From IMG/VR virus record IMGVR_UViG_3300030110_002095, positions 1 through 21,474 of that record: 21,474 nucleotides of DNA; one strand, given 5' to 3'. Positions 1,858 through 20,535 of this stretch are shown here, one piece after another. Each line of letters starts with the position of its first letter. The stretch's first letter is position 1. Made by a program: the position numbers and the translations under genes. This stretch comes from a virus. The notes beneath the pieces are model-generated. The model worked only from the letters and a program-made list of their open reading frames with translations. It had not been told where the DNA came from and did no database searches.

Positions 1858-2290
1858 TCAAAAACGTGAGGAGCGTGTAGCTGGTTTTATAGAAGGATTA
1901 TGGGGCGTCAGATGTCATAAGCTGCCAGTTTCTTACGGACTGGACTATTGGTGTGAAAGCAAAGAGAGTTCTTTCTGGATGGAAGTCAAATGTCGAAGTT
2001 TTGGTATTAACAAATACGAAACACTTTTATTGAGCGCATCTAAACTTAGAATGGGAGCTGCTTTATCTTTAGCTACAAACAGGCCATTTGTTCTTGTGTT
2101 TGCGATGACTGATAGTGTGTACTCACATACCTGGGCAAAAGATAAAGTATATGATGTAAGGTTTGGTACGATTGCAGAACCGCAACTGCCAGAAGATTCA
2201 GAACCCTATATACATCTGCATCAAACAGACTTAGTTTGTTTATCCGATAGTCCTTTGGGATTTGATAGAGACGAGTTAGGTCTAACTTAA
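1823..2290 (+). CDS. PD-(D/E)xK-fold nuclease-like protein
   Basis: 155 residues, with the start chosen by AAGGAG six bases upstream. Residues 38-58 contain Asp41, then a spacer, then Glu54-Val-Lys56 in a beta-strand context (FWMEVKCR). This matches the D...ExK active-site spacing of the PD-(D/E)xK superfamily (restriction-like, VRR-NUC and Holliday-junction-type enzymes). An N-terminal helix with several charged residues precedes it, and a compact alpha/beta core follows (LSASKLRMG, PFVLVFAM). It sits at the end of the replication module after the primase/helicase, so a role in replication, recombination or DNA degradation is reasonable. The length is typical of small single-domain members. 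Catalytic activity is inferred from three residues only; an inactive fold relative is possible. The last 9 bases overlap the convergent 1035-residue gene. Confidence 0.55.
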   Translation: MNAKPKMETINDQKREERVAGFIEGLWGVRCHKLPVSYGLDYWCESKESSFWMEVKCRSFGINKYETLLLSASKLRMGAALSLATNRPFVLVFAMTDSVYSHTWAKDKVYDVRFGTIAEPQLPEDSEPYIHLHQTDLVCLSDSPLGFDRDELGLT

Positions 2291-5200
2291 CCTTTCCGCT
2301 AATTCTTGATCTTGCGGATTGGGTAATAACGTAGGACCTATTGATCTTGTTCTTGGTGCGGGTATAGAAGCAGTAATATTAGGGAGATCTAAATCTAAAG
2401 ATGCAGGTACAGAAAAATTATCTATTGCTGATCTTGCGCTTTCTAATAAATTATCAGGTAGTATGTTTTGTTCCTCAAGTTGAGCCGAAACTTGTTCTTC
2501 TGTTTGCTCCCCTAAGTCAACTAGCGATCTAACGCCAGCTAATCTCAACGCTTTTTCAAACGCATCTAATACTTGTCCCATAGCAGATTTATCTGTACGA
2601 GCCATGAGAGAAACTATTTTAGGTTGTGAAAAGAAAGTTTTAGCTACGGTCAAAGCTATTACTGAAGGTAAAATGTTCAGATTAAAAAAACCTGCTGCTA
2701 ATGTGGCTGCTACAATGCCACCAGCCCCTTCTTTTTTAGCACCTGCAACCGTTCTGTCTAGAGTTCTACTGTAACCTTTAAAAGCTTGCGCTAACTCTTT
2801 ACCAAACATTGCCTCTATAGTTTCTTCACCGTAAGAATCTAAAGCTCTTTGAAAATTACCAGGTCTGAACAAATCAGTTATATCAGTACCGCCTGGTGAT
2901 ATTGATTTTTTCAATAACTGTTCAAGCGCCTCTTCTCGTATATTTTCAAAAGCCTCTTCAGAGATTTGATTCCTAACTGTGTTGATAGCTTCAGCACTAT
3001 TAGGTCTAAAAACCACTTGAGTTATCGTTTCTGGTGTCGCATTTTGAACATTTTGTAAAACTTTAGATTGTTGTATTTTTAGAAGACTGTCACTTGCTTT
3101 TGCTTTAGCTTCAATAGAGTCTGCAAAAATCCTTAGATTTTGTGATAATACATTATCTAAAGCGCCTGGACCTTTTAATGGCATACGTAATTTTTCCACT
3201 AATTTAAGCATTTCATCAGGGCTTAACTTTGGGCTATAACTGTTGAAAGCATTTAGAGTTCTCATCATGTTATCGTAGTTGTCTTTTAATAGTGGTCTTA
3301 ATGTTGCTCCGTAACTTTGTATATTGTTGACGTACTTACTAGGATTAAAAACCCCAGTCACAGGATCTGTCGCAACATCTACTGCATCAGCAAACAATCT
3401 TCTAGTTAAATCTATTCTTAATTGATCAGCAGCAATTTTTTTACTCACGACAGGACCTACAAAGTCCTCTGCTATTCTAGGACCGCCTCTCTCCATAGCT
3501 TTCAGTATGGTGTCTATAGCACTAGAATTGTTTTTCAATATTATGTGTTTGTATATATCATCAGCGTTATTACCAAAAACAGATGCCTCTGAAACAATTT
3601 TTTGAGTTATAGCTTGATTAAAAGGTTTCATATCTTCAAAGTATTTTGCATTGATACCTTTTAAATCTTTTACGGCGTCACTTATAATTTTTTTATCTGC
3701 GGGATCGTCTATACCCCTGCCTGCTTGATTTTTTGCACTAGATGTTTTAATTAATATATTATCTGGAGCGTTAAATAGTTCTTCATCAACTTTTTTTATA
3801 ACCTCTTCAACAAATGCACCTGATTTTCCACCAGACCTTACTCCAGCAGCTAACATAGCATCGACTAAGTCAGATCTAAGTTCTATCATTTGACTTAAAG
3901 TTGCTCCGTCTGCAAAAACACCACTATCAATTTCTTTAGAAATTCCTTTTAATATATCAATACTTACAGCGTCCATTCTGTATTTCAATGTAGGATTAGT
4001 TGTATTCAATTTATTGTCTATAAATTGTCCAATATTTTTAAGAGGGATTTTTAATTCAGCATCACCCAGACCAATATCATTGGCTATATTTCGAATTTTA
4101 CTAAATGCCGTGTTGTAATCAGATCTAAAGTTACCAATCATAGTTTTATAAGAATCTCTTATAGTGTTTTGTACTGAGGCTCCCAAGGCCGCTGTATTAG
4201 GAGCTGTTATGATAGAACTATTAAATCCAGCTGTCTGTTGCGACATGTCAACAAACATTTTTTTCAGTTGATTGGATACTTCATTTTCTACCGTTTCAAG
4301 TCTTTTTTTGGCTGCTGTTATCTCGCCCGCAGCAGCTCCAGTACCTTGGAATTGTGAATATTCTTGAACTGCTGCTCTTTTCTTTTCCAAAAGTTTATAA
4401 AGCTGTCCTTTCATTGCATTATTGTAATCAATCAAACCTTGTTCTCTTGCCCTACGACCAGCGATGGTTTCACCCATTGCTTGTGTACGTCCAGGTATAG
4501 ATTTTCCAAGTAGACCCATACTAACAGCAGCTTCAGTTCCTAAATATTCTATATCACCTGCTTTGAACGCTTTTTCAATATCTTTCTCAGTAGCTATTCT
4601 TCCTAACTTTTGGTCTAGTTTAAGTACGTCTGTCATGTCATAACCTCTACTTATAACATAGGCGTCCCTTATAACATCTACCGCTGCTTTTTTACCAAAA
4701 AATGCTGCGTACCCAAGACCAACTAATTCTCCTAAAGCTTGACCGCCCGAACCGATTGCAAATTCAGTGGTCAGTAATCTTTGCAGTTCTTCGGAGTCTT
4801 GTCTTTGAATACCTTCTGCCTCTTCGTAAATTTCCTCAACACCCTTACCTGCGGCAGTACCTACACCTGCTGCTAACATCCTACCCAATCTAGGTCCTAG
4901 AAATTTTTGTAACACACTCACAGCTCGTAAGTGAGGAGACATCGCAGCTATAGCTCCAAATATGGGTCCAGCTAATCCAGAAAGATCAGCGAAGTCACCA
5001 GAGCTAAATCCTGATTCATCTATGATTATATTCTTATCACTTAAATCTTGTTCGGGAAATAAACCTTTTTCAGCTAACCTTTTTTGTCCAATTGGAGTTA
5101 AGGCTAAATCCATTTTTGTATTGTATGTGAAGCCTTCTGGTCCAACATAATTCAATAACACTTGTTCCTTTTCAACCTCTCTACCGCCAACTCGCTTTTC

Positions 5201-5389
5201 AGCCAAACCTAACAATCCCCGCATTTTATTATTTTGTAAGCCTGTTTCGTAATCAAAATTGATTTGATCGTAATTTTTTGATCCTACTTGTGTTTTGTAA
5301 ACTTCGCGTGCTTTTGAAATAGCTTCGTCTAAATCATCTGCCTCTACTCTTATTACGGCATCTTCTGCAACTTTAATGTCATATTTCAT
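2282..5389 (-). CDS. Large virion protein, probable internal/ejection protein (1035 aa)
   Basis: The ATG at 5389-5387 overlaps the stop of the 643-residue gene (TAATG), indicating translational coupling. The N-terminal 35 residues (MKYDIKVAED, then VEADDLDEAISKAREVY) form a beta-alpha unit of a kind that I recall at the N-termini of other marine phage virion proteins. Two Gly/Ala-rich hydrophobic stretches lie at about residues 137-182 and 888-915, with long charged helical and coiled-coil-like regions between them. No lytic transglycosylase, protease or polymerase motif was found. It is the last and longest of a run of four virion-like genes, the same placement as T7 gp16 and P22 gp16, which are ejected with the DNA. 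That role is inference from size, position and composition. It is the terminal gene of the minus-strand block and meets the plus-strand nuclease gene tail to tail. Confidence 0.65.
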   Translation of the reverse strand: MKYDIKVAEDAVIRVEADDLDEAISKAREVYKTQVGSKNYDQINFDYETGLQNNKMRGLLGLAEKRVGGREVEKEQVLLNYVGPEGFTYNTKMDLALTPIGQKRLAEKGLFPEQDLSDKNIIIDESGFSSGDFADLSGLAGPIFGAIAAMSPHLRAVSVLQKFLGPRLGRMLAAGVGTAAGKGVEEIYEEAEGIQRQDSEELQRLLTTEFAIGSGGQALGELVGLGYAAFFGKKAAVDVIRDAYVISRGYDMTDVLKLDQKLGRIATEKDIEKAFKAGDIEYLGTEAAVSMGLLGKSIPGRTQAMGETIAGRRAREQGLIDYNNAMKGQLYKLLEKKRAAVQEYSQFQGTGAAAGEITAAKKRLETVENEVSNQLKKMFVDMSQQTAGFNSSIITAPNTAALGASVQNTIRDSYKTMIGNFRSDYNTAFSKIRNIANDIGLGDAELKIPLKNIGQFIDNKLNTTNPTLKYRMDAVSIDILKGISKEIDSGVFADGATLSQMIELRSDLVDAMLAAGVRSGGKSGAFVEEVIKKVDEELFNAPDNILIKTSSAKNQAGRGIDDPADKKIISDAVKDLKGINAKYFEDMKPFNQAITQKIVSEASVFGNNADDIYKHIILKNNSSAIDTILKAMERGGPRIAEDFVGPVVSKKIAADQLRIDLTRRLFADAVDVATDPVTGVFNPSKYVNNIQSYGATLRPLLKDNYDNMMRTLNAFNSYSPKLSPDEMLKLVEKLRMPLKGPGALDNVLSQNLRIFADSIEAKAKASDSLLKIQQSKVLQNVQNATPETITQVVFRPNSAEAINTVRNQISEEAFENIREEALEQLLKKSISPGGTDITDLFRPGNFQRALDSYGEETIEAMFGKELAQAFKGYSRTLDRTVAGAKKEGAGGIVAATLAAGFFNLNILPSVIALTVAKTFFSQPKIVSLMARTDKSAMGQVLDAFEKALRLAGVRSLVDLGEQTEEQVSAQLEEQNILPDNLLESARSAIDNFSVPASLDLDLPNITASIPAPRTRSIGPTLLPNPQDQELAERLS

Positions 5390-7320
5390 TATTGGGTGGC
5401 GTCGTAAAAGGTTACACCAGGACTCGGTTTATAAGAAGTAGACGCGCCGCTTGGCAAAGAACCACCTAGCTCCGCAAAATATATATCAGCTATTTCTTGA
5501 TCTATGTAATTATCTAACCTTCCTATGTCGGCAAAGAACTGTACGGAGGCCATAATATCTCTTTTAGCTGCATTTCGTTTTTGAACTATACTGTCTATAT
5601 TATTATTTAAAGTCTTTTTAAGCTCTGCTATGCTTGAAATTTTAGTCAAATCTAAATTACCTACAATACGATTGGCTACTTCTCTGTCTATGTTTGATAT
5701 GGTTCTGCCTGACTCACCTAAAATTTCTTTAATATTTCTGTTAGTAAGTTCTCTCAAAGCAATCTGTGCCTTTTTCGTATCGCTTAAATCATTAAATTCG
5801 CTTAAATCTTTTACATTGGCAGCAGCAAGTATATCGTCAACACTAGCGCCTAACTTAGCTCCAAAAGTAGCCAAATCTTCATTACCGTTAGCCAAATCTA
5901 TTACAGATTGGGCCATTTTTTCGGCAGCGAGAGCATTGTTATAGTCTTGGATGCTTTGGTTCATTTCACCCGCAACAGTTCTTATAGATTTTTGATCGCT
6001 AATTTTCACAGGCTCTCTTTTTTTACCAGCTGCTTTTTCTTCAGCAGCGGCGGCAGCGCCTAATGTAACCCCTGAAGCAAACTCGCCAGTCTGGGCTAAA
6101 CCTTTACCTACATTTCTTACGTATCTTATAAAGTCTGGGCTGGATACAAATTGTGCAAAACGAGATTCTTCTGGAATATCTCTATCTCCAGCGCCCGTAT
6201 CTTCTACACCTGCTGCCGCATCTCCTTCTCCTGCGGCCGCATCTCCTTCTCCTGCGGCTGTATCTCCAGCGTCTGCCCCTGTATCTTCACCAGTTTCATC
6301 TCCAAAAACTTCAAGCTCTGGTTTGAATCTTTTTTCTAAGTCTATATTTTCTTCTACGAATTTTTTGACATCTATATTTTCAAGATCTTTTGTAATTTCA
6401 TCATCGTCAATGCCTGCCGCAGATTTAACTATATTATCAATTACTTCGGGAGTGAATCCACCCCTTGCCGCATACCCCTCTGGGAAGTCTTTATCAAAAA
6501 ATCCTCTAATATTTTCTAAAGTATCTTCACCTACAAATGGATAAAGAGCGCCTGGTACTAATGTGGCTAGACCCTCGCTGCCAAAATCAAATAAGCCTTT
6601 TGCTCCTGCAATTAAACCACTACCAAAATCTTCAGGGCCGTAAGCTGTACCCCTTCTCTCTTCTAAATCTCCTCCAAACATTTCTCCGAAAAACTTTATA
6701 GCTCCAGGTTCATCAGATTTGATAAATTTAATCAGAGCATCATCAACATTTGTACCTGTTTCAATATCAGGAGAGTTAAAAATACGATACAAAAAAGCGC
6801 CTTTTCCTTTGCCATCTTCAATATCTTTTATACCTTGGGTGAAATCTACGATTGTTCCGTCACTTAATCTTATATCGTTTGGTCCTAGTATTTCTGTATT
6901 TTCTGTTTGAGGTAGTTCTTCTGTTAATGTGTCTCCTCGCATTACAGCTTCAATATCTTCTGAGAAATCAGGCGTAGGTAGATTGGGAATAGTCTTATCG
7001 GTAGTAAAGAAACCATCTGTAACAGGCGGTACAATATTTTGAAGGGTGTTTGCATCTGCGCTTATTGTAGCCATATTAGGACTTTGATTAACTATTGTCA
7101 TAGGTCCACCCACCTCTATAGCTATTCTTTCGATTGTAGCCAACCCCAAATCTTTTGGGAATGGCACACCCATACTTACGTAATCAGATTGTAATTTTTC
7201 TAATATTTGTACTGGCGCTAAACCACTTCTAGATAGATTTGCTATCTCTGTAGTCACATCTATAAGAGGTTGATTGACCACATCTCCAGCAGCAAACATT
7301 CTTCTATTTAATATGTTCAT
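5389..7320 (-). CDS. Large virion-associated protein with low-complexity acidic/Ala segment (643 aa)
   Basis: The start ATG (7320-7318) shares ATGA with the stop of the 448-residue gene. The N-terminus has RRMFAAGDVVN, related to the FAAGG motif in the 480-residue neighbour. Residues 15-75 are helical; about 340-390 is a disordered Gly/Ala/Asp/Glu segment that includes a seven-residue tandem repeat AAGEGDA; the C-terminal half is mostly charged helices (for example INREVANRIV-like stretches). No enzyme motif was seen. Its position between other virion-like genes and the coupled starts suggest an internal or ejection protein. The specific role is unknown. Confidence 0.6.
   Translation of the reverse strand: MNILNRRMFAAGDVVNQPLIDVTTEIANLSRSGLAPVQILEKLQSDYVSMGVPFPKDLGLATIERIAIEVGGPMTIVNQSPNMATISADANTLQNIVPPVTDGFFTTDKTIPNLPTPDFSEDIEAVMRGDTLTEELPQTENTEILGPNDIRLSDGTIVDFTQGIKDIEDGKGKGAFLYRIFNSPDIETGTNVDDALIKFIKSDEPGAIKFFGEMFGGDLEERRGTAYGPEDFGSGLIAGAKGLFDFGSEGLATLVPGALYPFVGEDTLENIRGFFDKDFPEGYAARGGFTPEVIDNIVKSAAGIDDDEITKDLENIDVKKFVEENIDLEKRFKPELEVFGDETGEDTGADAGDTAAGEGDAAAGEGDAAAGVEDTGAGDRDIPEESRFAQFVSSPDFIRYVRNVGKGLAQTGEFASGVTLGAAAAAEEKAAGKKREPVKISDQKSIRTVAGEMNQSIQDYNNALAAEKMAQSVIDLANGNEDLATFGAKLGASVDDILAAANVKDLSEFNDLSDTKKAQIALRELTNRNIKEILGESGRTISNIDREVANRIVGNLDLTKISSIAELKKTLNNNIDSIVQKRNAAKRDIMASVQFFADIGRLDNYIDQEIADIYFAELGGSLPSGASTSYKPSPGVTFYDATQ
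6215..6267 (-). repeat. 21-bp tandem repeat inside the 643-aa gene
   Basis: Two identical adjacent 21-base copies (6215-6235 and 6236-6256), followed by a diverged partial copy to 6267. They encode the seven-residue unit AAGEGDA on the minus strand. The copies are in phase with the reading frame, so copy-number change would not break the protein. Confidence 0.85.
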
Positions 7321-8663
7321 ACGTTTGGAAAATATCCCTGATTTGGTCCCGCTAGAGGATTATATTGATTGAAGGGATTTGTAGTTACTGGGGGAGAGTA
7401 CGGACCACCCATTCCAGCAGCAGGTAACATTTGATTCAGTACCGCAGGTATTGTTCCGCCAAAATTCTGCGGATTGTATACTTGATTTCCAGTTCCATCA
7501 GGAGTAGGAGTAGGAGTAGGTGTAGGTGTTGGAGTCGGTGTAGGTGTAGGTGTTGGAGTAGGTGTTCTTTGTTGATTTTGTGTGTTCGCAAAATTAGCAT
7601 ACGTACTCAAGGCAGTGGACAGAGCTTGTACTCTTGGATCTGGTGGCTGTCTAAATTTAGTATCTACTTGCGTTACTCCACCTTGATAAGTTGGTAAGAA
7701 ACCTTGAACGTAACTTGCGGCAGATGTAGGTGCAAATCTAGTCTCTCTTTGTTGATCAAATGCTCTTTGCAATCTTTGATCTGCGATACCACGTTGTAAT
7801 CCACCAAGTCCTAACAGTTCACTTCTTTCGCTTTGTCCTAATCTTTGTATATCTTCTCCTAATCTTCCAATATTTCCACCATATTGAGCGATGTCGGCTC
7901 CTATATTCCTTGAAAGTCCAGCTCTCCTGCCGCCTATACCACCCAATTGAGTTGCAAAACCAGATAAATTACCAGCAAGCCCTTCTAGGCCACGTGCTCT
8001 TCTACCAAATTCATCAACGCCCAATCTTTGCGCCTCTGTGAATCCTTGCCTTCTAATATCTGATAAAGCTTCTCCTAGACCTCTTCCTAAAGCTCTACGT
8101 CTATCTGCGGCACTTAATCTAGCTCTTGAACCAAAAGCAGATTCTCCGCCTGTTTGTATGTCTCTAGCTCTAGCGTCAATATCCGCAAGCTCTCCAGCTT
8201 TAAAAACATCATCAATAGTTTGTTGAACTACTCTCTGTTCAAAAGGATTATAAAACTGAGTGGCAAATCTGGGATCGTATCCCATACCTGCTGCTCGTCT
8301 TGCAATATCAGTCGCTTCTCCTACAAGTGCTTGCTCACCAGCAAAATAAGGTTGAGCTATATCTTCTGCTCTAACTGATCTGCCTATGGCTTGTTGTAAG
8401 TTTTGGAGGTTGGTATCTAGAAAAGGCTGAAAAGAACCTATTCCGCTTAAAGCACTTTGTATAGCTCTTGATTCAATAGGGTCTAAATCAGCAGTTTCCC
8501 TGAGTATTGCAGGCGCGCCGTAAGCCCTATTAGCAGCTTCTATAGCTTGCGATATTATTCCTGGAGTATCAGGAGAACCAAAGTAAGCCTCTCTGATAAA
8601 AGGATCAGATATTGTTTCTCGTCTATCTATACTTGTTGGTACTGGATTTCTTGATTTTGCCAT
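7317..8663 (-). CDS. Virion-associated protein with Thr-Pro repeat hinge (448 aa)
   Basis: The ATG (8663-8661) overlaps the TAA of the upstream gene (TAATG). The N-terminus (SDPFIREAYFGSPDTPG) is extended. Residues about 60-340 are Arg/Ala/Gly/Gln-rich helices that look like a long coiled or bundled rod (ARRAAGMGY, RARGLEGLAG, IGRLGEDIQRLGQ). A run of 11 Thr-Pro pairs follows at about residues 367-388, then a Pro/Asn-rich tail ending FNQYNPLAGPNQGYFPNV. The (TP)n segment would be a stiff disordered linker. No catalytic motif was found. Like its neighbours it is best explained as an internal or tail-associated virion protein. The function is not known. Confidence 0.6.
   Translation of the reverse strand: MAKSRNPVPTSIDRRETISDPFIREAYFGSPDTPGIISQAIEAANRAYGAPAILRETADLDPIESRAIQSALSGIGSFQPFLDTNLQNLQQAIGRSVRAEDIAQPYFAGEQALVGEATDIARRAAGMGYDPRFATQFYNPFEQRVVQQTIDDVFKAGELADIDARARDIQTGGESAFGSRARLSAADRRRALGRGLGEALSDIRRQGFTEAQRLGVDEFGRRARGLEGLAGNLSGFATQLGGIGGRRAGLSRNIGADIAQYGGNIGRLGEDIQRLGQSERSELLGLGGLQRGIADQRLQRAFDQQRETRFAPTSAASYVQGFLPTYQGGVTQVDTKFRQPPDPRVQALSTALSTYANFANTQNQQRTPTPTPTPTPTPTPTPTPTPTPDGTGNQVYNPQNFGGTIPAVLNQMLPAAGMGGPYSPPVTTNPFNQYNPLAGPNQGYFPNV
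7501..7566 (-). repeat. Hexanucleotide microsatellite coding for (Thr-Pro)11
   Basis: Eleven consecutive 6-base units, GGAGTA/GGTGTA/GGTGTT/GGAGTC variants on the plus strand, reading ACN-CCN on the minus strand. The third codon bases vary while every unit still codes Thr-Pro, so the protein repeat appears to be kept by selection and not only by recent slippage. Confidence 0.9.
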
Positions 8664-13081: not shown

Positions 13082-13525
13082 CTATATTTTCTCCCATTTT
13101 TTTCCTTCAAACATATCGGCTTCAGCTTGTCTTCTTTTTACTAGACCTTTTAAAACTTGTCCGCCAGCTTTGTTCCATCGTACTATTTGATCAGGCACTT
13201 CGTCATATTTACCTTCATTTAAAAATTTAAGTAAAGTAGAAGATTGTAAATTAGTGGGTCCTAAATTAAATACCCAAGAACAAAGCGCGTCAAATTGATT
13301 TTGATTCAAAGGTACATTTATCATTTTGTTTATATACCCCTCATATTCAGGCATCTCTTCTTGTAGTAAATGCTCTGCTTCGTCTTGATTTATTTGGTCG
13401 CCCTCTTTGACACCCTTAATTGTCCCGTATCCAATTGTCCAAACTCCTACGCTATCTTGATATGCTTCCAAACCGCAACCCTCAAAATTTTTGATTAGTT
13501 TTATACCTTCTTGTGATATTTTCAT
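13082..13525 (-). CDS. Endolysin, GH24 (T4/P22-type) lysozyme
   Basis: From the ATG at 13525 the protein is 147 residues, the normal size for this family. It begins MKISQEGIKLIKNFEG. The catalytic triad E-8aa-D-5aa-T is intact: Glu15, Asp24 and Thr30 in this numbering (NFEG, YQDSVG, WTIGYGT). LCSWVFNLG and the C-terminal KGLVKRRQAEADMF match the family. It cleaves murein glycosidic bonds at lysis. The frame is open upstream to an ATG at 13666, but those 47 extra residues lie entirely inside the nuclease gene and are not conserved lysozyme sequence. The ATG at 13525 is one base after the nuclease stop (TGAAATG) with a GGGGCGA upstream. No signal-anchor is seen, so release should need a holin. 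Confidence 0.92.
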   Translation of the reverse strand: MKISQEGIKLIKNFEGCGLEAYQDSVGVWTIGYGTIKGVKEGDQINQDEAEHLLQEEMPEYEGYINKMINVPLNQNQFDALCSWVFNLGPTNLQSSTLLKFLNEGKYDEVPDQIVRWNKAGGQVLKGLVKRRQAEADMFEGKKWEKI

Positions 13526-13526
13526 T

Positions 13527-13922
13527 TCATTCGCCCCAAGTCCCATCTTTTTTAACATGTCCTGTCTTTGTTCCGCCCCAGTATTCAACAGCGTGTCCTT
13601 CCTTGATAAGCTTTTGACAAACATCTTCACCATCTGCCGTATAAGGTACGCCCAAAATTCTGCCATATTTACCTTTACCTAAAGATTTAATCCTAAATGT
13701 GCCTTCGCATAATTCTTTCAATCTTTCTTTAGCTTTTAAACCTAAAGCCTTTTCTTCTAAATTTCTTGTTCTAGATTCTGGTGTGTCAATACCAGCGAGC
13801 CTAACTCTTTGTTTATGCAGTTTTACATCAAAACCAAGGTCTAAGATACAATCAAATGTGTCACCATCTACTATACGATCGAGTGTAGCTCTATAAACAA
13901 ATTCATCTGGGGTCCTACTCAT
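13527..13922 (-). CDS. Staphylococcal-nuclease-like (thermonuclease) protein
   Basis: 131 residues. VDGDTF (Asp19, Asp21), RVRLAGIDTPES (Arg41, Asp46, Glu49) and GKYGRILG (Arg88) match the metal and catalytic residues of the SNase fold, so it should be an active Ca-dependent sugar-nonspecific nuclease. No signal peptide is visible, so it would act in the cytoplasm unless released at lysis. It lies between the o-spanin and the endolysin. The start overlaps the lipoprotein stop by 8 bases. Phage SNase-like proteins may help degrade host DNA or scavenge nucleotides; which applies here is not shown. Confidence 0.88.
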   Translation of the reverse strand: MSRTPDEFVYRATLDRIVDGDTFDCILDLGFDVKLHKQRVRLAGIDTPESRTRNLEEKALGLKAKERLKELCEGTFRIKSLGKGKYGRILGVPYTADGEDVCQKLIKEGHAVEYWGGTKTGHVKKDGTWGE

Positions 13923-14283
13923 CTTCAGTTTCCTGTGGTTTATCTAACTCTCTATAATATTTAATGATAGCCAGTATATCTTTTGTGTACCTAGTTATTT
14001 CTGCCATGTCCATTGATAGATTCTCATACTCCCTAGCTGATAAGGAGTAGAAAGCTCTTGGTGGTGCGTTCCCTGCTGACAAACTATCTAAATACTCTTG
14101 CATAGTAGTTGGCGTTAAAACCTCCCAATCTACATTTGTAAGACTCATAGGGTAAGGCAAAGGCGGATGATATATAGGTGATCTTTCGGCTATAGTTTTA
14201 ACTTGAACAGGTTTGACGGCCTGTTGAAAAGTAGAACAACTAGCCAACAAAATTATAAAACTAATTAGTGCTAGATTTCTCAT
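13915..14283 (-). CDS. Outer-membrane lipoprotein, probable o-spanin (Rz1-like)
   Basis: 122 residues with a lipoprotein signal: RNLALISFIILLASC, with the modified cysteine at residue 16. A Pro-rich stretch follows (SPIYHPPLPYP), then SLTNVDWEVLTP, and a helical C-terminus with EYENLSMDMAEITRY and IIKYYRE. I recall this C-terminal pattern from phage genes next to endolysins. Together with the coiled-coil membrane protein just upstream it would form a two-component spanin that fuses inner and outer membrane after murein is cut. Its start overlaps the i-spanin gene by 23 bases, recalling the nested Rz/Rz1 arrangement. Confidence 0.75.
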   Translation of the reverse strand: MRNLALISFIILLASCSTFQQAVKPVQVKTIAERSPIYHPPLPYPMSLTNVDWEVLTPTTMQEYLDSLSAGNAPPRAFYSLSAREYENLSMDMAEITRYTKDILAIIKYYRELDKPQETEDE

Positions 14284-14665
14284 TTGATTTTTCTGGGTTA
14301 CTCAATCTCTCTAATTCAGCCATAACTCTTGCTGAACCTCTATTTATTCTTCTTTGCATGTCTTCTGGATTAGCTAGAGCAGATTCATCTAAATCTAAGT
14401 TTGCAAATGTTTTCCGTAGTTTGTTTACATTTTCCATAGCTTTTTTATTCTCTGCTGCAAGTGTATTCATTTGTTGTTGTTGTTGCTTTGCTTGTTCTAG
14501 ATGCTTTTCTATTGCATCGTTTTGTTTTTGTATCTCTGTTTCTAAGATTAATTGATTTCCTTTGAGGGTGCTTATCTGATCTGCTTGATAATCTATGTAC
14601 CAAGCTGATCCAGCAATTGATACTACTAACAGTCCGCTTAATATTATTGATAGTTTTAATCCCAT
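14261..14665 (-). CDS. Inner-membrane coiled-coil protein, probable i-spanin (Rz-like)
   Basis: 134 residues. An N-terminal membrane anchor (about residues 5-25, SIILSGLLVVSIAGSAWYI) is followed by a long periplasmic coiled coil rich in Gln, Lys and Glu (QISTLKGNQLILETEIQKQ, then a Gln run and AENKKAMENVNKLR) and a charged tail with NRGSARVMAELERL. This is the standard Rz organisation. The gene overlaps the cyclase stop by 10 bases and the lipoprotein start by 23. It is predicted to pair with the lipoprotein at the outer membrane. Confidence 0.8.
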   Translation of the reverse strand: MGLKLSIILSGLLVVSIAGSAWYIDYQADQISTLKGNQLILETEIQKQNDAIEKHLEQAKQQQQQMNTLAAENKKAMENVNKLRKTFANLDLDESALANPEDMQRRINRGSARVMAELERLSNPEKSNEKSSTN

Positions 14666-16401
14666 GTATATATATTTAAAGGTTTACTTATACCTTTTAC
14701 CTCTATTGGTTTTAATGATTTTAGCTTAAATCCACAATTTTTTGCAGTCTCCTCTGCAATTATTAAATCTACGCCTACTGTTTTGCAACTTGATTCACAC
14801 CTAGCAGCTATATTTACAGCAGAACCAATAGCTGTGTAATCAAATCTAGTGGACGACCCACAGTTACCTATCACAGCTTCACCAGTGTTTACTCCCACTC
14901 CTATTTCAACACCAATATCTGCGAGTTTAAATTGATCTTGTATTTCTTTAGCACATAATACAGCTGCTTCTTCGTGATTTTCCAAGTCTAAAGGAGCGTT
15001 AAATATGGCAAACATGGCGTCCCCTATGTACTTGTCTATCATACCGTCATACCTTTTTACTGTTTCAGATTGTATAGTTAAAGCCTCATTCATAATTTTA
15101 ATTACGCTTTCAGGGTCCATAGTTTCGCTCATAGCTGTAAAACCTCGCACGTCTGTGAATAAAAATGTGCATCTTTTCTTTTCACCACCCAACTTTAGTA
15201 GACTAGGATCAGATTGTAGAGCCTTTACTTGTCTAGGATCTAAGTAATGCTCAAATTGTTTTTTAATTTGCTGTCGTAGTTTGTATTGTTCTCTAAAACG
15301 CAAATAGAAAGCTACTGTGGCTGTAATAAATTGTGACACCAAAGCCCAAGTTACATCTATCAAGATACCATTTTGTATGGTATTTACTCCGTAAAAGGCT
15401 GTGGATGCAAACACTACAGCAAAAAATAATACGCCCCATGTGATACCAAAAACATTCAATACAAGCCAAACAAAAACTAAAGAGAACAAAAATATTAATA
15501 ACTCTAGAGCCAATGCGTAGTCAGGTATGTACGGACTATCTTGTATAAGTATAGATTCAGCAAGCGCTGCTTGTATTTTATGTGGTTCTAACAGACCTAC
15601 TGGTGTAGCAAGCTGCGGCATAATACCTTTTGCAGTAAACCCAACGAATACAAATTTATTTTCTACATCCATCTCTGCTAAAGATGTTTCACGTGGAACA
15701 ACCCAAGAAATCCATTTACGACCTAGACTATCAGTTTTTACTGGAGGTAATCCTTTTACTCTGACTTCTTCAACACCATTATCATTAGTTTTTATAACGT
15801 AGGTATCTGCTCCAGCTAAAACTTTGAGAACTTCTGTACCGTATGAAGATACCCAACCATTAGGAGTACGCATCAGTAAGGGCAGCCTACGTATTAAATT
15901 ATCAGCATCCGTACGAGCAACTGCTATACCTTGACTGGCGTTATGTTTCAAAACATCTATATTTTGTATAACACCTGTTGCCATCATGCCACCAGTATTT
16001 TCAGGACCTAAAATCACAGTGCCAGATGTAGGCGGATACTCACCTTTACCTTCAAACATAGCTAAAACACTTGGAGAAAATTTTAAAGCTTCAGTAAACT
16101 CAAAGTCACCACCAAACCTATCTGGTTGTGGAAAAGCCATGACCCAACCTACGCCCATAGCGCCTTGTCTTAATAAATTGATGTGTATTTGAGCTAATGT
16201 TTGTCTAGATAAAGGATAACCACCTTCGTTAGCTATATCTTCTTCTGTTATATTTAAAACTACAAAATTGCCTGATTCTTCCTTTTCTTGTATAAAACTA
16301 TCAAATGTTTTTAATTTTAATATCTCATAAGCAATTGGTTGAAAATAATAAACAGATCCAAGTGCCATAAATAAAATTAAAAATATAATAGTTTTTTTCA
16401 T
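14656..16401 (-). CDS. CHASE2-domain class III adenylate cyclase
   Basis: 581 residues. TM1 is at about 4-20; an extracytoplasmic CHASE2 sensor spans about 25-290 (FVFVGFTAKGI and a PHKIQAALAESIL helix are typical); three TM helices lie at about 298-317, 320-337 and 345-367; a short linker (KQFEHYLDPRQV) precedes the cyclase homology domain at about 408-581. Catalytic residues are all present: metal Asp417 (LFTDVRGF) and Asp461 (IGDAMF), adenine-selecting Lys457 and Asp521 (DKYIGD, FDYTAIG), and transition-state Asn530 and Arg534 (VNIAAR). It should therefore make cAMP from ATP at the inner membrane, most likely as a homodimer, in response to a periplasmic signal. Its ATG overlaps the FecR gene stop (ATGA). 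CHASE2 cyclases beside FecR-domain genes are a familiar bacterial pairing. A cyclase of this type on a phage is unusual. Confidence 0.93.
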   Translation of the reverse strand: MKKTIIFLILFMALGSVYYFQPIAYEILKLKTFDSFIQEKEESGNFVVLNITEEDIANEGGYPLSRQTLAQIHINLLRQGAMGVGWVMAFPQPDRFGGDFEFTEALKFSPSVLAMFEGKGEYPPTSGTVILGPENTGGMMATGVIQNIDVLKHNASQGIAVARTDADNLIRRLPLLMRTPNGWVSSYGTEVLKVLAGADTYVIKTNDNGVEEVRVKGLPPVKTDSLGRKWISWVVPRETSLAEMDVENKFVFVGFTAKGIMPQLATPVGLLEPHKIQAALAESILIQDSPYIPDYALALELLIFLFSLVFVWLVLNVFGITWGVLFFAVVFASTAFYGVNTIQNGILIDVTWALVSQFITATVAFYLRFREQYKLRQQIKKQFEHYLDPRQVKALQSDPSLLKLGGEKKRCTFLFTDVRGFTAMSETMDPESVIKIMNEALTIQSETVKRYDGMIDKYIGDAMFAIFNAPLDLENHEEAAVLCAKEIQDQFKLADIGVEIGVGVNTGEAVIGNCGSSTRFDYTAIGSAVNIAARCESSCKTVGVDLIIAEETAKNCGFKLKSLKPIEVKGISKPLNIYTWD

Positions 16402-17513
16402 CCAGACCCTTGCTTGATAGTAATAGTGGTTGAAGAACCGCCATTTACTTTCACTGTATTTGATACTCCGTCTTGTACTAAGATGATAGTATAGCTTTGA
16501 GAACCGTCTAATGACAGTCTTGCGCTTTGGCTTACGGATCTAATCATACTTATGTTTTGACCTGATACTATAGTAGTAATCTGTGTGTCTTTGTCTTGGC
16601 CTATATCTGTACCAGTGATACGTATACCTACACCACCCTTTTTGAGTTGATCTTCTTCTTTGGATATTGCCAAAGCATCTATAACATTAAGCAAATCCTC
16701 AAGAAAATTTACGTCTAAATAATTTATATCTAATTCAGTAAATTCAAGATCAGCCTCTGTATCAAGAAAATCTTCATTTAAATAATCAATATCTAGATCG
16801 TTAAAATCCAAATAGTCTACTGTCGATTTTGATTGTGTCTCTTGTATTTGTTTATCTGTTTCCTCTGGTGGATTGACGATCAACATGTTATCAATCAAAT
16901 CTAGCGATATATCTAAAGTTACAGGCTTAGTGGGATTGTTCTCGTATACAGATACAGTTGTTGCCTGGTATGGTTTATTCAACGTCACACTACCCATAGC
17001 TGTAGATACCATGATTTCACCACTAGATATACCATTCTCATCAGGTAACAGTATGACAAGGGATCTACCTAATTCATCTACTGTACAAGTAAAGTCTGTG
17101 CCTCTAATTGCTATATCAGCGGTAGGAGTCTTGATAGATATATTGCTTTTATTATTGAATTTGCCTGTGATGAATCTTGCTGTGCCACTAGCAAACTTCA
17201 AGGCCATTTTTGATTTTGAAGGATCAGGATCATAGATATATTCATCTATAACCAATTTTGAATGTTCTGTCAGTTTTACTGTAGAAGAGTCTTCAAAAGT
17301 TATGGCGACTCTGCCCGCTTCTGTGCGGACATCATCCATTTGTTGTATATCAAACTCTAGTTCAGCACCATAAGGCTTGTCTCGTAGAACTTGAGCATTA
17401 CCTCTAAGTTCTGAAATTGCGCCTATCTCAACAGACGAATGAAGTAGTTGAGTCTGACTGAGTAACGCAAACAGTACCGTTAGAGCCAACAGACGTAATT
17501 TTGAGCCAGTCAT
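16398..17513 (-). CDS. Periplasmic FecR-domain protein with acidic repeat and curlin-like C-terminus
   Basis: 371 residues. The signal peptide is at about 1-27 (KLRLLALTVLFALL core). The FecR domain is at about 30-190: FASGTARFITGKF followed by ISIKTPTADIAIRGTDFTC is the family signature. Residues about 233-275 are a degenerate acidic repeat of units like DINYLDVNFLE. The C-terminal 32 residues contain LVQDGVSNTV, a Q-x-G-x-x-N pattern as in curlin repeats, then NGGSSTTITIKQGSG. FecR-domain proteins act as periplasmic sensors, classically with sigma regulators, and also occur beside CHASE2 cyclases. The start lies 86 bases inside the 3' end of the curlin-like gene in another frame and has no clear Shine-Dalgarno; the next Met would remove the signal peptide, so the overlap is kept. 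It probably signals to, or senses the fibre for, the cyclase (inference). Confidence 0.8.
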   Translation of the reverse strand: MTGSKLRLLALTVLFALLSQTQLLHSSVEIGAISELRGNAQVLRDKPYGAELEFDIQQMDDVRTEAGRVAITFEDSSTVKLTEHSKLVIDEYIYDPDPSKSKMALKFASGTARFITGKFNNKSNISIKTPTADIAIRGTDFTCTVDELGRSLVILLPDENGISSGEIMVSTAMGSVTLNKPYQATTVSVYENNPTKPVTLDISLDLIDNMLIVNPPEETDKQIQETQSKSTVDYLDFNDLDIDYLNEDFLDTEADLEFTELDINYLDVNFLEDLLNVIDALAISKEEDQLKKGGVGIRITGTDIGQDKDTQITTIVSGQNISMIRSVSQSARLSLDGSQSYTIILVQDGVSNTVKVNGGSSTTITIKQGSG

Positions 17514-18186
17514 TATCTTGAGTTGATTCTTGGTCTATGTTAAAAGTCCTTGTACTTCCTGTATGATCTAAGTAAAAGTAACCACCAGCGTATCCATCGC
17601 CATCATAAGTTATTGTATTATCACTACCATCAATATCCATATAGTTAGTAGCCCCGTCAACATCTATATTAGAAGTTATAGTGTTGCCTGAACCTTGGAC
17701 TATCCAATCTAAATCAAGGTTTGCAGCTAATGCTGTCATCGCATGGTTTAATGTTGCTGTGTTTGTATTGCCTGTAAACTGAACATTCACGTTAGAACCG
17801 TCAGCCCCAGTTGCGTTAGTCTCATCAGTAGACATGTTAAATGTATTGGTATCACCTATGAATGAAAAATAACCCGTATAGTTATCCGCCCATATATCAC
17901 CAAGAAATTTATTAGTATTACCTTTTTGTAAAATATCTAAAGTCATGGTTGTGCCATCCAAATCCAATGGTGTCATATTGGAAGCACCAGCTGTTGCATC
18001 AGCACCACCTATGATATTACCGCTACCCCCAACTTGTTCTATATCTAGATTGGATGTAGCACCTGATTGATCTATAAATATTTCATTGTCTGCACTTATT
18101 AAATGCAAAGATAAAATTAACAAACTAAAACCAAATAAAATCGCCTTGAAAAGTTCAAGAACTTGTTTTCCAGTATCCTTGTTCAT
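17428..18186 (-). CDS. Secreted curlin-like repeat protein (candidate CsgG substrate)
   Basis: 252 residues. A long signal peptide (1-32, hydrophobic core FGFSLLILSLHLI, Ala32 before DNE) is followed by about eight imperfect repeats of roughly 22-28 residues. Their shared pattern is hydrophobic-x-hydrophobic-(Q)-x-G-x-x-N-T-hydrophobic. Clear units include DILQKGNTNKF (84-94), FSFIGDTNTFN (107-117), VNVQFTGNTNTATL (133-146), WIVQGSGNTIT (161-171) and MDIDGSDNTITY (183-194). These resemble the amyloid-forming repeats of CsgA/CsgB but are more Asp-rich and less Gln-rich. Two cysteines lie near the end (CVTQS, FVC). It is directly downstream of csgF-csgG with a GAGGAAGG ribosome site, so it is the best candidate for the exported subunit. 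Amyloid formation is not shown by sequence. Confidence 0.7.
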   Translation of the reverse strand: MNKDTGKQVLELFKAILFGFSLLILSLHLISADNEIFIDQSGATSNLDIEQVGGSGNIIGGADATAGASNMTPLDLDGTTMTLDILQKGNTNKFLGDIWADNYTGYFSFIGDTNTFNMSTDETNATGADGSNVNVQFTGNTNTATLNHAMTALAANLDLDWIVQGSGNTITSNIDVDGATNYMDIDGSDNTITYDGDGYAGGYFYLDHTGSTRTFNIDQESTQDNDWLKITSVGSNGTVCVTQSDSTTSFVC

Positions 18187-18955
18187 ATCCTTCCTCTATT
18201 GTTTGTAAAACAGCTGTCTCGATAGCCATCTGTAAAGCAATATTTATAGACTCATTCTCTACTATACCGCTCTCTATTTCAACTAATTCGGTGTTATTTG
18301 CATAAAATCTGAACACATCAGAAGATACAGATGCGCTAAGTATTGTTTTGGTAACTAACACTTCAAGTAATATTTTACCTGTCAAAACAGATACAGTTCG
18401 TAAAGATATAGTTACTGAGTCCTGTCTGTATTCTTTTGATGCACCTATACCTAAATATCTTGCACCAGCTCCACCTGACTTGATATTGGTTTCATAACCT
18501 ACAACTCCGCCCTCCATCAACAAGCCAGCGAATAGTAAAGGTTTGAGTTGTTGTTTTTCATCAAAATTTTCTCTGGCAGAACGAATAATTTGTCTTTCTT
18601 TTGTTAGATGATCTAATCCTGTACGCTCTACAACATCAAACACACCAGAATGTTGCAAGGCCCTAATCAAATAGGCATCAGGTGATTGTGTGATAGCCGT
18701 ACTAAAGCTCGCATATTGGCTGTTGCTTCTGCGCTGTCCTGTATCGTCTTTGAAAGAACCAGGATATACAGCTACTACAGGTTTGCGTTCGGGAGTAGGA
18801 ACTTCTGCTAGTTTGGTCAATAAAGAACCAACCTCTGCTGACTCAATATTTCTTACGGGTGGTATTCCATTGTCTAATGGCGGTATGGTTAAGGCGCAAC
18901 TAGAAAGTAAAAGAACCGAGAGGTACAGTAATTTCTGTTGTATTGCCTTCTTCAT
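18155..18955 (-). CDS. csgG: CsgG, curli secretion outer-membrane lipoprotein pore
   Basis: 266 residues, close to the 277 of E. coli CsgG. The lipoprotein signal ends LLLSSC with Cys20. The mature core aligns well: PVVAVYPGSFKDDTGQ, FSTAITQSPDAYLIRAL, VFDVVERTGLDHLTKER, GGVVGYETNIKSGGAGARY with LGIGA, and KTILSASVSSDVFRF. The KSGGxGARYxGIGA block and the VERxGLxxLxxER block are strong family markers. CsgG forms a nine-subunit outer-membrane barrel that exports unfolded curli subunits. The constriction residues differ from E. coli: by ungapped alignment Phe84 equals Phe56, but Tyr51 and Asn55 are both replaced by Ser, with a Tyr two residues downstream of the Tyr51 position (Tyr81). The start has no Shine-Dalgarno and lies 56 bases inside csgF. 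Confidence 0.95.
   Translation of the reverse strand: MKKAIQQKLLYLSVLLLSSCALTIPPLDNGIPPVRNIESAEVGSLLTKLAEVPTPERKPVVAVYPGSFKDDTGQRRSNSQYASFSTAITQSPDAYLIRALQHSGVFDVVERTGLDHLTKERQIIRSARENFDEKQQLKPLLFAGLLMEGGVVGYETNIKSGGAGARYLGIGASKEYRQDSVTISLRTVSVLTGKILLEVLVTKTILSASVSSDVFRFYANNTELVEIESGIVENESINIALQMAIETAVLQTIEEGYEQGYWKTSS
18188..18197 (-). promoter_or_regulatory. Shine-Dalgarno of the curlin-like gene, inside csgG
   Basis: On the minus strand AGAGGAAGGA lies just before the ATG at 18186, with GAGG about six bases away. It sits within the csgG coding sequence. It contrasts with csgG and the FecR gene, whose starts have no evident site, and suggests that the subunit is translated more strongly. 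Confidence 0.65.
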
Positions 18956-19367
18956 CTGTAATTATTAGTGTTACCTTATCGTCTTCTACTCTATATTCTA
19001 TGGTGTTGCCTTCTAATTCTAAAGTGCCGAACTCAGATGCAGTCTCACCAAATAAACTATCAACCAACTGTCTGCTTAGTTGTGCGTATATTCTACTCTC
19101 TAAATTACGTATAAATCTTGCAAGAGTGGTGTTATCTGCTTCTCTCTCTAAATCTTCTACATAAGCTTTGATTTCCTCACGTATAGCTTCTTTTCTATTG
19201 AACTCTTGGTTTTCAATGGTTAAATAATGACTTGATGTTCCAACACCTGAAAAACTAGGATTTTTGAACTTATGTGTCATCTCATCTGCTTGTACAGATA
19301 AAACCAAAAACATAACAATAATTATGGAAGCTATCAGCAATACTTCATCAGGACGTTTAGAAGGCAT
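18900..19367 (-). CDS. csgF: CsgF, curli secretion pore accessory/cap protein
   Basis: From the ATG at 19367 the protein is 155 residues (E. coli CsgF is 138). A signal peptide with a strong hydrophobic core (VLLIASIIIVMFLVLSVQA) is cut before DEM. The mature N-terminus DEMTHKFKNPSFSG matches the CsgF signature MTxxFxNPxFxG, which inserts into the CsgG pore. A helical region (FIRNLESRIYAQLSRQLVDSLF) and C-terminal beta strands (NTIEYRVEDDKVTLIITDEEG, ITVPLGSFTF) agree with the family fold. The frame is open to 19445, but the extra 26 residues overlap the upstream gene and precede a perfect signal peptide, so 19367 is chosen. The C-terminal 18 codons overlap csgG. CsgF couples secretion to nucleation at the cell surface in curli systems. 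Confidence 0.92.
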   Translation of the reverse strand: MPSKRPDEVLLIASIIIVMFLVLSVQADEMTHKFKNPSFSGVGTSSHYLTIENQEFNRKEAIREEIKAYVEDLEREADNTTLARFIRNLESRIYAQLSRQLVDSLFGETASEFGTLELEGNTIEYRVEDDKVTLIITDEEGNTTEITVPLGSFTF

Positions 19368-19372
19368 AATTT

Positions 19373-19570
19373 TTATAGATAAGTAATTACTAAATCTACA
19401 CTTTTTACTGTATCTATCCAATAAAATGTTATATAGCCAAGCCAACTAAATGCGATTAGGAAGCAACAAGCTACTGCATATCTTTTCCAATTTTCTTGTA
19501 ATAAATCTAATGTTTTATCAATAAAATTAAATACTTTTTGTCTTTTTGATATTTTCTTTTTTCTTGCCAT
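19373..19570 (-). CDS. Small single-pass membrane protein (65 aa)
   Basis: 65 residues: a very basic N-terminus (MARKKKISKRQK), an amphipathic stretch, then one membrane segment (about 32-53, YAVACCFLIAFSWLGYITFYW). AAGGAG at 19581-19576 is well placed before the ATG. The basic N-terminus predicts a cytoplasmic N-terminus. It sits five bases upstream of csgF and may belong with the small membrane-protein cluster or serve the cassette. No family was recognised. Confidence 0.65.
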   Translation of the reverse strand: MARKKKISKRQKVFNFIDKTLDLLQENWKRYAVACCFLIAFSWLGYITFYWIDTVKSVDLVITYL

Positions 19571-19575
19571 GTTTA

Positions 19576-19581
19576 CTCCTT
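19576..19581 (-). promoter_or_regulatory. Shine-Dalgarno of the 65-aa membrane protein
   Basis: AAGGAG on the minus strand, overlapping the stop of the 115-residue gene, with the ATG at 19570 five bases after it. Confidence 0.75.
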
Positions 19582-19927
19582 AATTAAATGCCCAAACAAA
19601 AACCGCTAATAATCCAATCAAAGATACCAAAATAAATGCAATAGCGGTTATTTCTATGGTTCTACCTAATTTATTTAGGTATATCGTATCTTGTTCTGGA
19701 TTGAACCTTTCGTCTTCATAGATATACTTGTCTCGTGGAAAAGGTCTTTTCTTTGGCATGGGTTCAAATATTACGTTGTCTATTGAAACTAACTGTTCTT
19801 CCTCTATCCTTTTTACTTCTTGCTCTTGATACTCCGTCCATTTTTTACCATACTTTTCATACATGATGTTGTTAAAATCTGCGTCTAGAAATGCTTGATC
19901 TTCTGATTTGGTCTTTTCTTTATCCAT
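19580..19927 (-). CDS. C-terminally anchored membrane protein (115 aa)
   Basis: 115 residues. Roughly the first 88 are charged and helical with several aromatic residues (FNNIMYEKYGKKWTEYQEQE, then a Pro-rich FEPMPKKRPFPRDKY). A single C-terminal membrane helix follows (about 92-113, ITAIAFILVSLIGLLAVFVW). The topology suggests a cytoplasmic domain tethered to the inner membrane. No homologous family was recognised. It sits between the paired 97-residue proteins and the curli genes. Confidence 0.6.
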   Translation of the reverse strand: MDKEKTKSEDQAFLDADFNNIMYEKYGKKWTEYQEQEVKRIEEEQLVSIDNVIFEPMPKKRPFPRDKYIYEDERFNPEQDTIYLNKLGRTIEITAIAFILVSLIGLLAVFVWAFN

Positions 19928-19947: not shown

Positions 19948-20241
19948 TTAATCAACTCTTCTAATTCCCTCTTGCTTTTTATTTTTTGATTCTGCTGTTT
20001 CATCTTTCCCCTCGTTTTCTCTTATTTCCAAAACAGTATTTACCTTTTGTTGTAACCTTATCATGTCTTGATCTAGTAATCTTAATTGATCAGTTAGACG
20101 AATAATAGTTGCTTTCATCTCTTGAACAGAAGGATCTATCTTATTAGTTATTGTTTGCCAGACAAAATATACAAAATAACCTAAACCTACAACCATAACT
20201 ACTGGAAATCCAAAGTCTGCGACTATCTGAACTACATCCAT
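19948..20241 (-). CDS. Small holin-like membrane/coiled-coil protein, paralogue A (97 aa)
   Basis: An N-terminal membrane helix (about 5-29, IVADFGFPVVMVVGLGYFVYF) is followed by a coiled coil (ATIIRLTDQLRLLDQDMIRLQQKV) and a charged tail. It has the same length and layout as the adjacent gene upstream, with shared positions such as G-x-P in the membrane segment, YF at its end, and the block DMIR. The ATG immediately follows the TAA of that gene. The layout resembles BhlA/UviB-type small phage holin-like proteins, but this is topology only. Confidence 0.6.
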   Translation of the reverse strand: MDVVQIVADFGFPVVMVVGLGYFVYFVWQTITNKIDPSVQEMKATIIRLTDQLRLLDQDMIRLQQKVNTVLEIRENEGKDETAESKNKKQEGIRRVD

Positions 20242-20535
20242 TTAATCTCTTCTAGCGTCTATTTTACCGTCCTCTACAAAGTTTTCTGCTCTTGCTATAC
20301 GGTCTAGGTCTGGAGGTAGGTTCAAAGCGCTAGAGACGCTTGTATCTATACGAATCATATCGTTGTTCATAATAGATGCTCTAGTAATTAACATTTTGGT
20401 TATACCTTGTACCGTTTGTATTTCGCTAATCAAACCATCCATAAGCTGTTTCATTACTAAAAATATAAAGTAGGCCATTATAAGTGCGCCCGCAATAGGC
20501 AGGCCTAATTCAGCGATTAGATTGAACGCTTCCAA
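20242..20535 (-). CDS. Small holin-like membrane/coiled-coil protein, paralogue B (97 aa)
   Basis: 97 residues: an N-terminal membrane helix (about 4-28, NLIAELGLPIAGALIMAYFIF) and a helical tail containing NNDMIRIDTSVSSALNLPPD, ending DARRD. It appears to be a duplicated copy of the neighbour at 20241-19948, retaining the G-x-P, YF and DMIR positions but otherwise well diverged. Its function is unknown. It is grouped with the 108-residue holin candidate and the XhlA-like protein upstream. Confidence 0.6.
   Translation of the reverse strand: MEAFNLIAELGLPIAGALIMAYFIFLVMKQLMDGLISEIQTVQGITKMLITRASIMNNDMIRIDTSVSSALNLPPDLDRIARAENFVEDGKIDARRD

Follow-up and report, generated by a model that had tools for sequence, protein, structure and literature searches.

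Operons containing csgF and csgG, genes of the curli secretion system, were reported in pelagimyophages in 2020 (PMC7029224). In 2022 the full cassette, csgF-csgG-csgA/B-FecR-(csgA/B)-adenylate cyclase, was described in podo- and myo-pelagiphages, together with its oceanic distribution, its expression in metatranscriptomes and its alphaproteobacterial origin (PMC9599517). The cassette of phage Melnitz has also been discussed, and a role in lysis was proposed for it (PMC9004378). Here we analyze a cassette of this kind in the IMG/VR virus record IMGVR_UViG_3300030110_002095, a stretch of 21,474 bases that we call the window. An earlier note on this DNA took the five-gene unit to be unreported. 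It is not new, since PMC9599517 already describes the csgF-csgG-csgA/B-FecR-cyclase cassette, and annotated records of phages HTVC008M and Melnitz contain it as well; with the cassette in print already, the locus counts for less as a discovery. What is new here is its two-module origin, the strict presence of FecR beside an optional cyclase, a relabelling of small proteins upstream, the existence of empty sites and, with weaker support, a peculiar tail of the FecR protein.

The cassette occupies positions 14656-19367, where the earlier note had placed five consecutive, overlapping genes on one strand; coordinates, strand and overlaps are all confirmed. The genes are tightly packed and are listed here in the order of transcription.

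18900..19367, minus strand: csgF homologue, 155 amino acids (aa), ATG start at 19367, hydrophobic signal-peptide-like N-terminus, Pfam CsgF 6.7e-19
18155..18955, minus strand: csgG homologue, 266 aa, predicted lipoprotein outer-membrane pore, Pfam CsgG 3.1e-53, with aligned relatives and matches to solved CsgG
17428..18186, minus strand: curlin-like protein, probable cargo, 252 aa, hydrophobic N-terminus and xIxQxGxxN repeats, recognized by relatives and fold model
16398..17513, minus strand: FecR-domain protein, 371 aa, predicted exported, FecR domain at residues 60-152, Pfam FecR 3.8e-13
14656..16401, minus strand: CHASE2 sensor with class III adenylate cyclase, 581 aa, Pfam CHASE2 1.2e-25 and Guanylate_cyc 1.5e-17

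We put the probability at roughly 55% that the phage has in these genes a type VIII (curli) secretion cassette of the pelagiphage kind, composed of two bacterial modules, which exports a curlin-like protein through CsgG with envelope sensing by the FecR and CHASE2 proteins. Of the functions considered below, such export has the best support. Pfam assigns four of the five products (CsgF, CsgG, FecR, and CHASE2 plus Guanylate_cyc) to the families that the earlier note had named. The CsgG homologue matches solved CsgG structures at 1e-69, its lipobox cysteine (Cys20) is invariant in the alignment of relatives, and the gene for its CsgF partner adjoins csgG, as expected of a type VIII secretion system. 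As for the third gene, Curlin_rpt is matched by 8 of 14 aligned relatives of its product (best 8.6e-6), and many of the repeat Q, G and N columns of their alignment are invariant. An AlphaFold2 model of the protein is a beta-helix (predicted local distance difference test, pLDDT, 84; predicted template-modelling score, pTM, 0.80). Comparison of this model by VIA-align returns generic beta-helices, the best at Z 17 to SufB/SufD, which speaks for the type of fold only; Foldseek finds nothing in the PDB below E 0.2, and when profiles are compared directly, the similarity to E. coli CsgB is weak. We infer the curlin-like nature of the protein from its relatives and its predicted fold, not from a domain match of its own, and it is likely to be the cargo of CsgG, as had been supposed. 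With the csgDEFG/csgBAC operons of E. coli the window has in common CsgF, CsgG and a probable curlin cargo of the repeat type. It differs from them in that CsgD, CsgE and CsgC were not found in the window, whereas the E. coli operons have no FecR or CHASE2 cyclase.

The arrangement is conserved among phages. Two independent scans of IMG/VR, one with CsgG as the query and the other with the cyclase, yielded 160 loci; each scan kept the closest 80, so near relatives are the best sampled. Where enough flanking sequence is available, exactly csgF-csgG-curlin-FecR-cyclase is present in 24 of 27 loci found with CsgG and in 29 of 31 found with the cyclase (53/58), the exceptions being two loci with an additional curlin-like gene and three without the cyclase. 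Since this order is seen in dozens of independent contigs, its recurrence exceeds chance. The same five genes, in the same order and at 26-50% identity, are found in HTVC008M, which infects Pelagibacter, and in Melnitz, whose host belongs to the Methylophilales; in both, a further curlin-repeat gene separates FecR from the cyclase, and the annotated records label the third gene as curlin-associated. These loci bear out the five genes as a conserved unit. The earlier note would have been refuted had the order occurred in no other phage, or had related phages carried just one or two of the genes in unrelated positions; its recurrence in many phages shows otherwise. Like the window, HTVC008M and Melnitz have paired 97-aa proteins upstream, but their flanks differ and do not contain lysis genes. 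The cassettes of PMC9599517 agree with ours in the five genes, their order, their location on a single strand and the absence of CsgE and CsgD; the window differs in having no second curlin gene, and its upstream 97-aa pair, presumably what the paper terms HK, has no kinase domain. The virion and replication genes (tail, primase) are approximately 35-40% identical to those of HTVC023P or other named phages, and no deposited phage record matches the window at the DNA level; for these reasons the virus is another lineage with the same cassette. The cassette is very common in ocean viruses. An unannotated csgG match is also present in OR851715.1, a record of 1,499 bases named Salmonella phage S.Kent 1-2-1, which may be mislabelled bacterial DNA.

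The phage cassette seems to combine two modules of bacterial origin, one a core of csgF, csgG and curlin and the other a pair of FecR and CHASE2 cyclase, because FecR and CHASE2 are a standing pair in bacteria, whereas the bacterial csgF-csgG loci that we examined lack both. In a sample of 289 alphaproteobacterial genomes (the class of a Cohaesibacteraceae metagenome-assembled genome, MAG), FecR and CHASE2 genes are located no more than 6 kilobases apart at least 27 times, in at least 26 genomes and at least 16 times on the same strand. With one or two of each gene per genome of several million bases, we estimate that chance would produce about one such pair. At three loci (L246, L247 and L248) FecR is immediately upstream of the cyclase. 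In genome G009, of the Pelagibacter order, FecR is near a CHASE2 protein whose output is a SpoIIE phosphatase and not a cyclase (L244:4034-8916), which suggests that the pairing is independent of cyclic AMP (cAMP). A FecR-CHASE2-cyclase cluster has been reported in Campylobacterota (PMC9239204). In S. meliloti, the gene for a FecR-domain protein is among the targets of Clr, a regulator that responds to cAMP, in whose pathway CHASE2 cyclases take part (PMC5498481; PMC13001267). The clusters of Campylobacterota and alphaproteobacteria resemble the phage genes in that an exported FecR-domain protein adjoins a CHASE2 cyclase, but in those examined there are no adjacent csg genes, and their FecR proteins do not have the xIxIxQ tail of the phage protein. 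Matches to CsgF are few in these 289 genomes, with 3 over the cut-off. At seven bacterial csgF-csgG loci (L167, L241-L243, and those of Azospirillum, Limimaricola and Sphingomonas) neither FecR nor a cyclase is present, and both are likewise absent from the csg locus of Salinibacter, which is outside that class. Seven of the 12 csg hits in GTDB (L161-L166 and L169) were rejected as bacterial evidence, being phage contigs within MAGs that carry this very cassette. The MAGs in question are labelled as Maricaulis, Candidatus Pelagibacter, Flavobacteriaceae and Rhodobacteraceae.

The FecR-domain protein has an apparent signal peptide, the FecR domain, an acidic and leucine-rich linker and a C-terminal tail ending in xIxIxQ. 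A FecI/FecR/FecA-type regulator responding to iron (ferric citrate) was considered and rejected: the FecR domain stands alone with no match to an anti-sigma domain, the N-terminus resembles a signal peptide and the window yielded no sigma factor. The link of FecR to csgG is stricter than that of the cyclase. Downstream of csgG comes FecR, or curlin and then FecR, in every one of 119 distinct cases, and FecR precedes 132 of 133 cyclases. Of 121 distinct cassettes, however, 17 have no cyclase after FecR; in those inspected (L016, L034, L032 and L283) a short holin-like gene or the endolysin comes next instead. Since FecR is kept in those 17 cassettes, it has a role independent of cAMP. Its bacterial relatives align to about residues 28-218 of the phage protein only. 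Beyond this region, phage tails end in hydrophobic-x-hydrophobic-x-Q in 72 of 72 distinct, though related, sequences, where about 2 would be expected after shuffling. The C-terminus of E. coli CsgB, AIRVTQR, resembles this ending, and the curlin motif is missing from eight FecR proteins encoded near CHASE2 genes in bacteria. When the tail is compared with curlins by profile, the similarity is weak (E 0.015, probability 3%), and comparison with the E. coli curlin profile gives no signal. One may speculate that the phage FecR bridges the two modules: the curlin-like tail would dock inside the CsgG/curlin apparatus or on its surface, where it would stand in for the missing CsgE gate or nucleate the fibre, while the FecR domain would report secretion to the CHASE2 cyclase, thereby making a sensor of secretion status. 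We regard this suggestion as rather improbable.

Catalytic residues of class III cyclases are conserved in the alignment of the phage enzyme (D417 and D461 for metal, K457 specifying adenine, N530 and R534 for the transition state), and among solved structures its closest relatives are class III adenylate cyclases of bacteria. The earlier note proposed that the phage links the cell envelope to host cAMP signalling. We examined 147 genomes of the order to which a MAG labelled Candidatus Pelagibacter MED1116 belongs, which may not be the host order of this virus. No class I and no host class III cyclase was found in them; the single PF00211 match is on a phage contig, and that contig is also the only place where csgF was found. 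Cyclic nucleotide-binding domains are present in 10 of the 147 genomes, all of them within one type of protein of about 870 aa. Since the sampled order has no cyclase of its own and almost no proteins to bind the product, and since 17 of 121 cassettes do without the enzyme, a link to host cAMP signalling is unsupported there. The sole cyclic nucleotide-binding protein type of this order (L173:919-3264) is long and multidomain, and is not a CRP-type regulator.

The surroundings of the cassette are relevant to what it might do. The following features flank it.

19948-20241 and 20242-20535, minus strand: two paralogous small membrane proteins of 97 aa, phrog_18771, weak holin similarity
19373-19570 and 19580-19927, minus strand: two small proteins with one transmembrane segment, between the 97-aa pair and csgF, optional, in some relatives only
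13915..14665, minus strand: Rz and Rz1 spanins, outside the cassette, phrog_739 4.8e-11 and phrog_812 1.6e-14
13082..13922, minus strand: SNase-type nuclease and T4-type endolysin, outside the cassette, Pfam SNase 2.3e-14 and Phage_lysozyme 1.5e-49

Overlaps within the cassette measure 56 nucleotides (csgF/csgG), 32 (csgG/curlin), 86 (curlin/FecR) and 4 (FecR/cyclase), and the cyclase gene overlaps Rz by 10. These overlaps had been thought to imply a joint function. They are real, but similar packing runs through the entire late operon (21368 to 13915, minus strand), with all computed gaps of 20 nucleotides or less and Rz and Rz1 overlapping as well. Overlap is not peculiar to the five genes and is therefore weak evidence of joint function. 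A scan for promoters and terminators was uninformative, with counts equal to those in shuffled sequence. The P22 gp10-like tail gene, which had been described as standing beside the cassette, is indeed near it but not adjacent; Rz, Rz1, the nuclease and the endolysin intervene. One or two copies of the 97-aa protein are usually found upstream of csgF. Neither Pfam nor NCBIfam shows a histidine-kinase domain in the pair, and what PMC9599517 labels 'HK' is probably this kind of small membrane protein. Lysis genes are downstream of the cyclase in most podovirus loci. Five related loci (L345, L355, L382, L386 and L387) have the 97-aa pair and no curli cassette, and may be described as empty sites; in the first two the spanins and endolysin are retained. 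Another locus without csg genes, L267, has in the slot before Rz (4656-7981) genes for an exported 376-aa protein rich in Asn-Thr repeats and an exported 741-aa protein. Neither can be placed convincingly in a family, and together they may represent another surface system.

If the cassette is a secretion system, its action can be pictured as follows. Upon expression of the late operon, the curlin-like and FecR proteins would enter the periplasm. Nine-fold CsgG together with CsgF would form an outer-membrane channel, through which the curlin-like protein would be exported to fold as a beta-helix outside the infected cell. FecR would remain associated with the CsgG/CsgF/curlin machinery, and the CHASE2 cyclase, where present, would sense the state of the envelope or FecR itself and respond with cAMP. 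Such remodelling of the infected cell surface is plausible, and the phage might benefit by aggregation of cells or by the blocking of rival phages. Several observations count against this proposal. Clumping was not seen in Melnitz-infected cells (PMC9004378), the curlin-like protein itself matches neither Pfam nor a curlin model, neither the CsgE gate nor the CsgD regulator has a Pfam match among the window proteins scanned, and structure prediction for the FecR protein is unusable (pLDDT 46).

Other explanations may be considered. The cassette could time or execute lysis, with the CsgG pore and the small holin-like proteins weakening the envelope beside the spanin and endolysin genes. The role proposed for Melnitz, the cyclase/Rz overlap, the position of lysis genes after the cyclase in podovirus loci and the weak holin scores of the 97-aa proteins are all in line with this. 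Nevertheless, two of the empty-site viruses keep spanins and endolysin, so the cassette is not needed for lysis; in HTVC008M and Melnitz it is away from recognized lysis genes, and a lysis pore would need no curlin, FecR or cyclase. We consider this role unlikely. The already published suggestion that CsgG is an ungated inward pore, by which a starving host takes up larger nutrients (PMC7029224, PMC9599517), would explain why no CsgE-type gate family is matched in the cassette, but it leaves the universally retained curlin-like protein and FecR unexplained and seems to us more doubtful still.

In favour of the earlier note's reading, in which the cassette mainly signals into the host's own cAMP network, is the adenylate cyclase, which is intact and has a periplasmic sensor. 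The cyclase is dispensable, however, and the scarcity of cAMP-related proteins in the sampled Pelagibacter order makes such a purpose hard to credit. Lastly, the cassette could be passenger cargo of weak or conditional benefit, swapped among phages in a slot of the late operon. Empty sites and the other secreted cargo of L267 are what one would expect of such a slot, but gene order and catalytic residues persist in two phage families whose proteins are 30-40% identical, and we attach little weight to this possibility too.

The cassette gives infected cells a secretion system that is missing from hosts such as Pelagibacter, and it is abundant in ocean viruses. If surface fibres are indeed built, infection would alter the sticking of the commonest marine bacteria and their encounters with other phages. 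Reading the cassette as two modules puts right two labels in the literature: FecR would not be a regulator of iron, and the supposed histidine kinase, as we infer, would not be a kinase. It also makes a specific coupling of curli export to cAMP testable.

Two minor features of the window may be mentioned. Three large late proteins (1035, 643 and 448 aa), encoded at 2282-8663, have no convincing family match and are probably virion or tail proteins. The SNase-type nuclease gene (13527-13922) is situated between Rz1 and the endolysin, and some relatives carry an SNase gene of a second type upstream of csgF.

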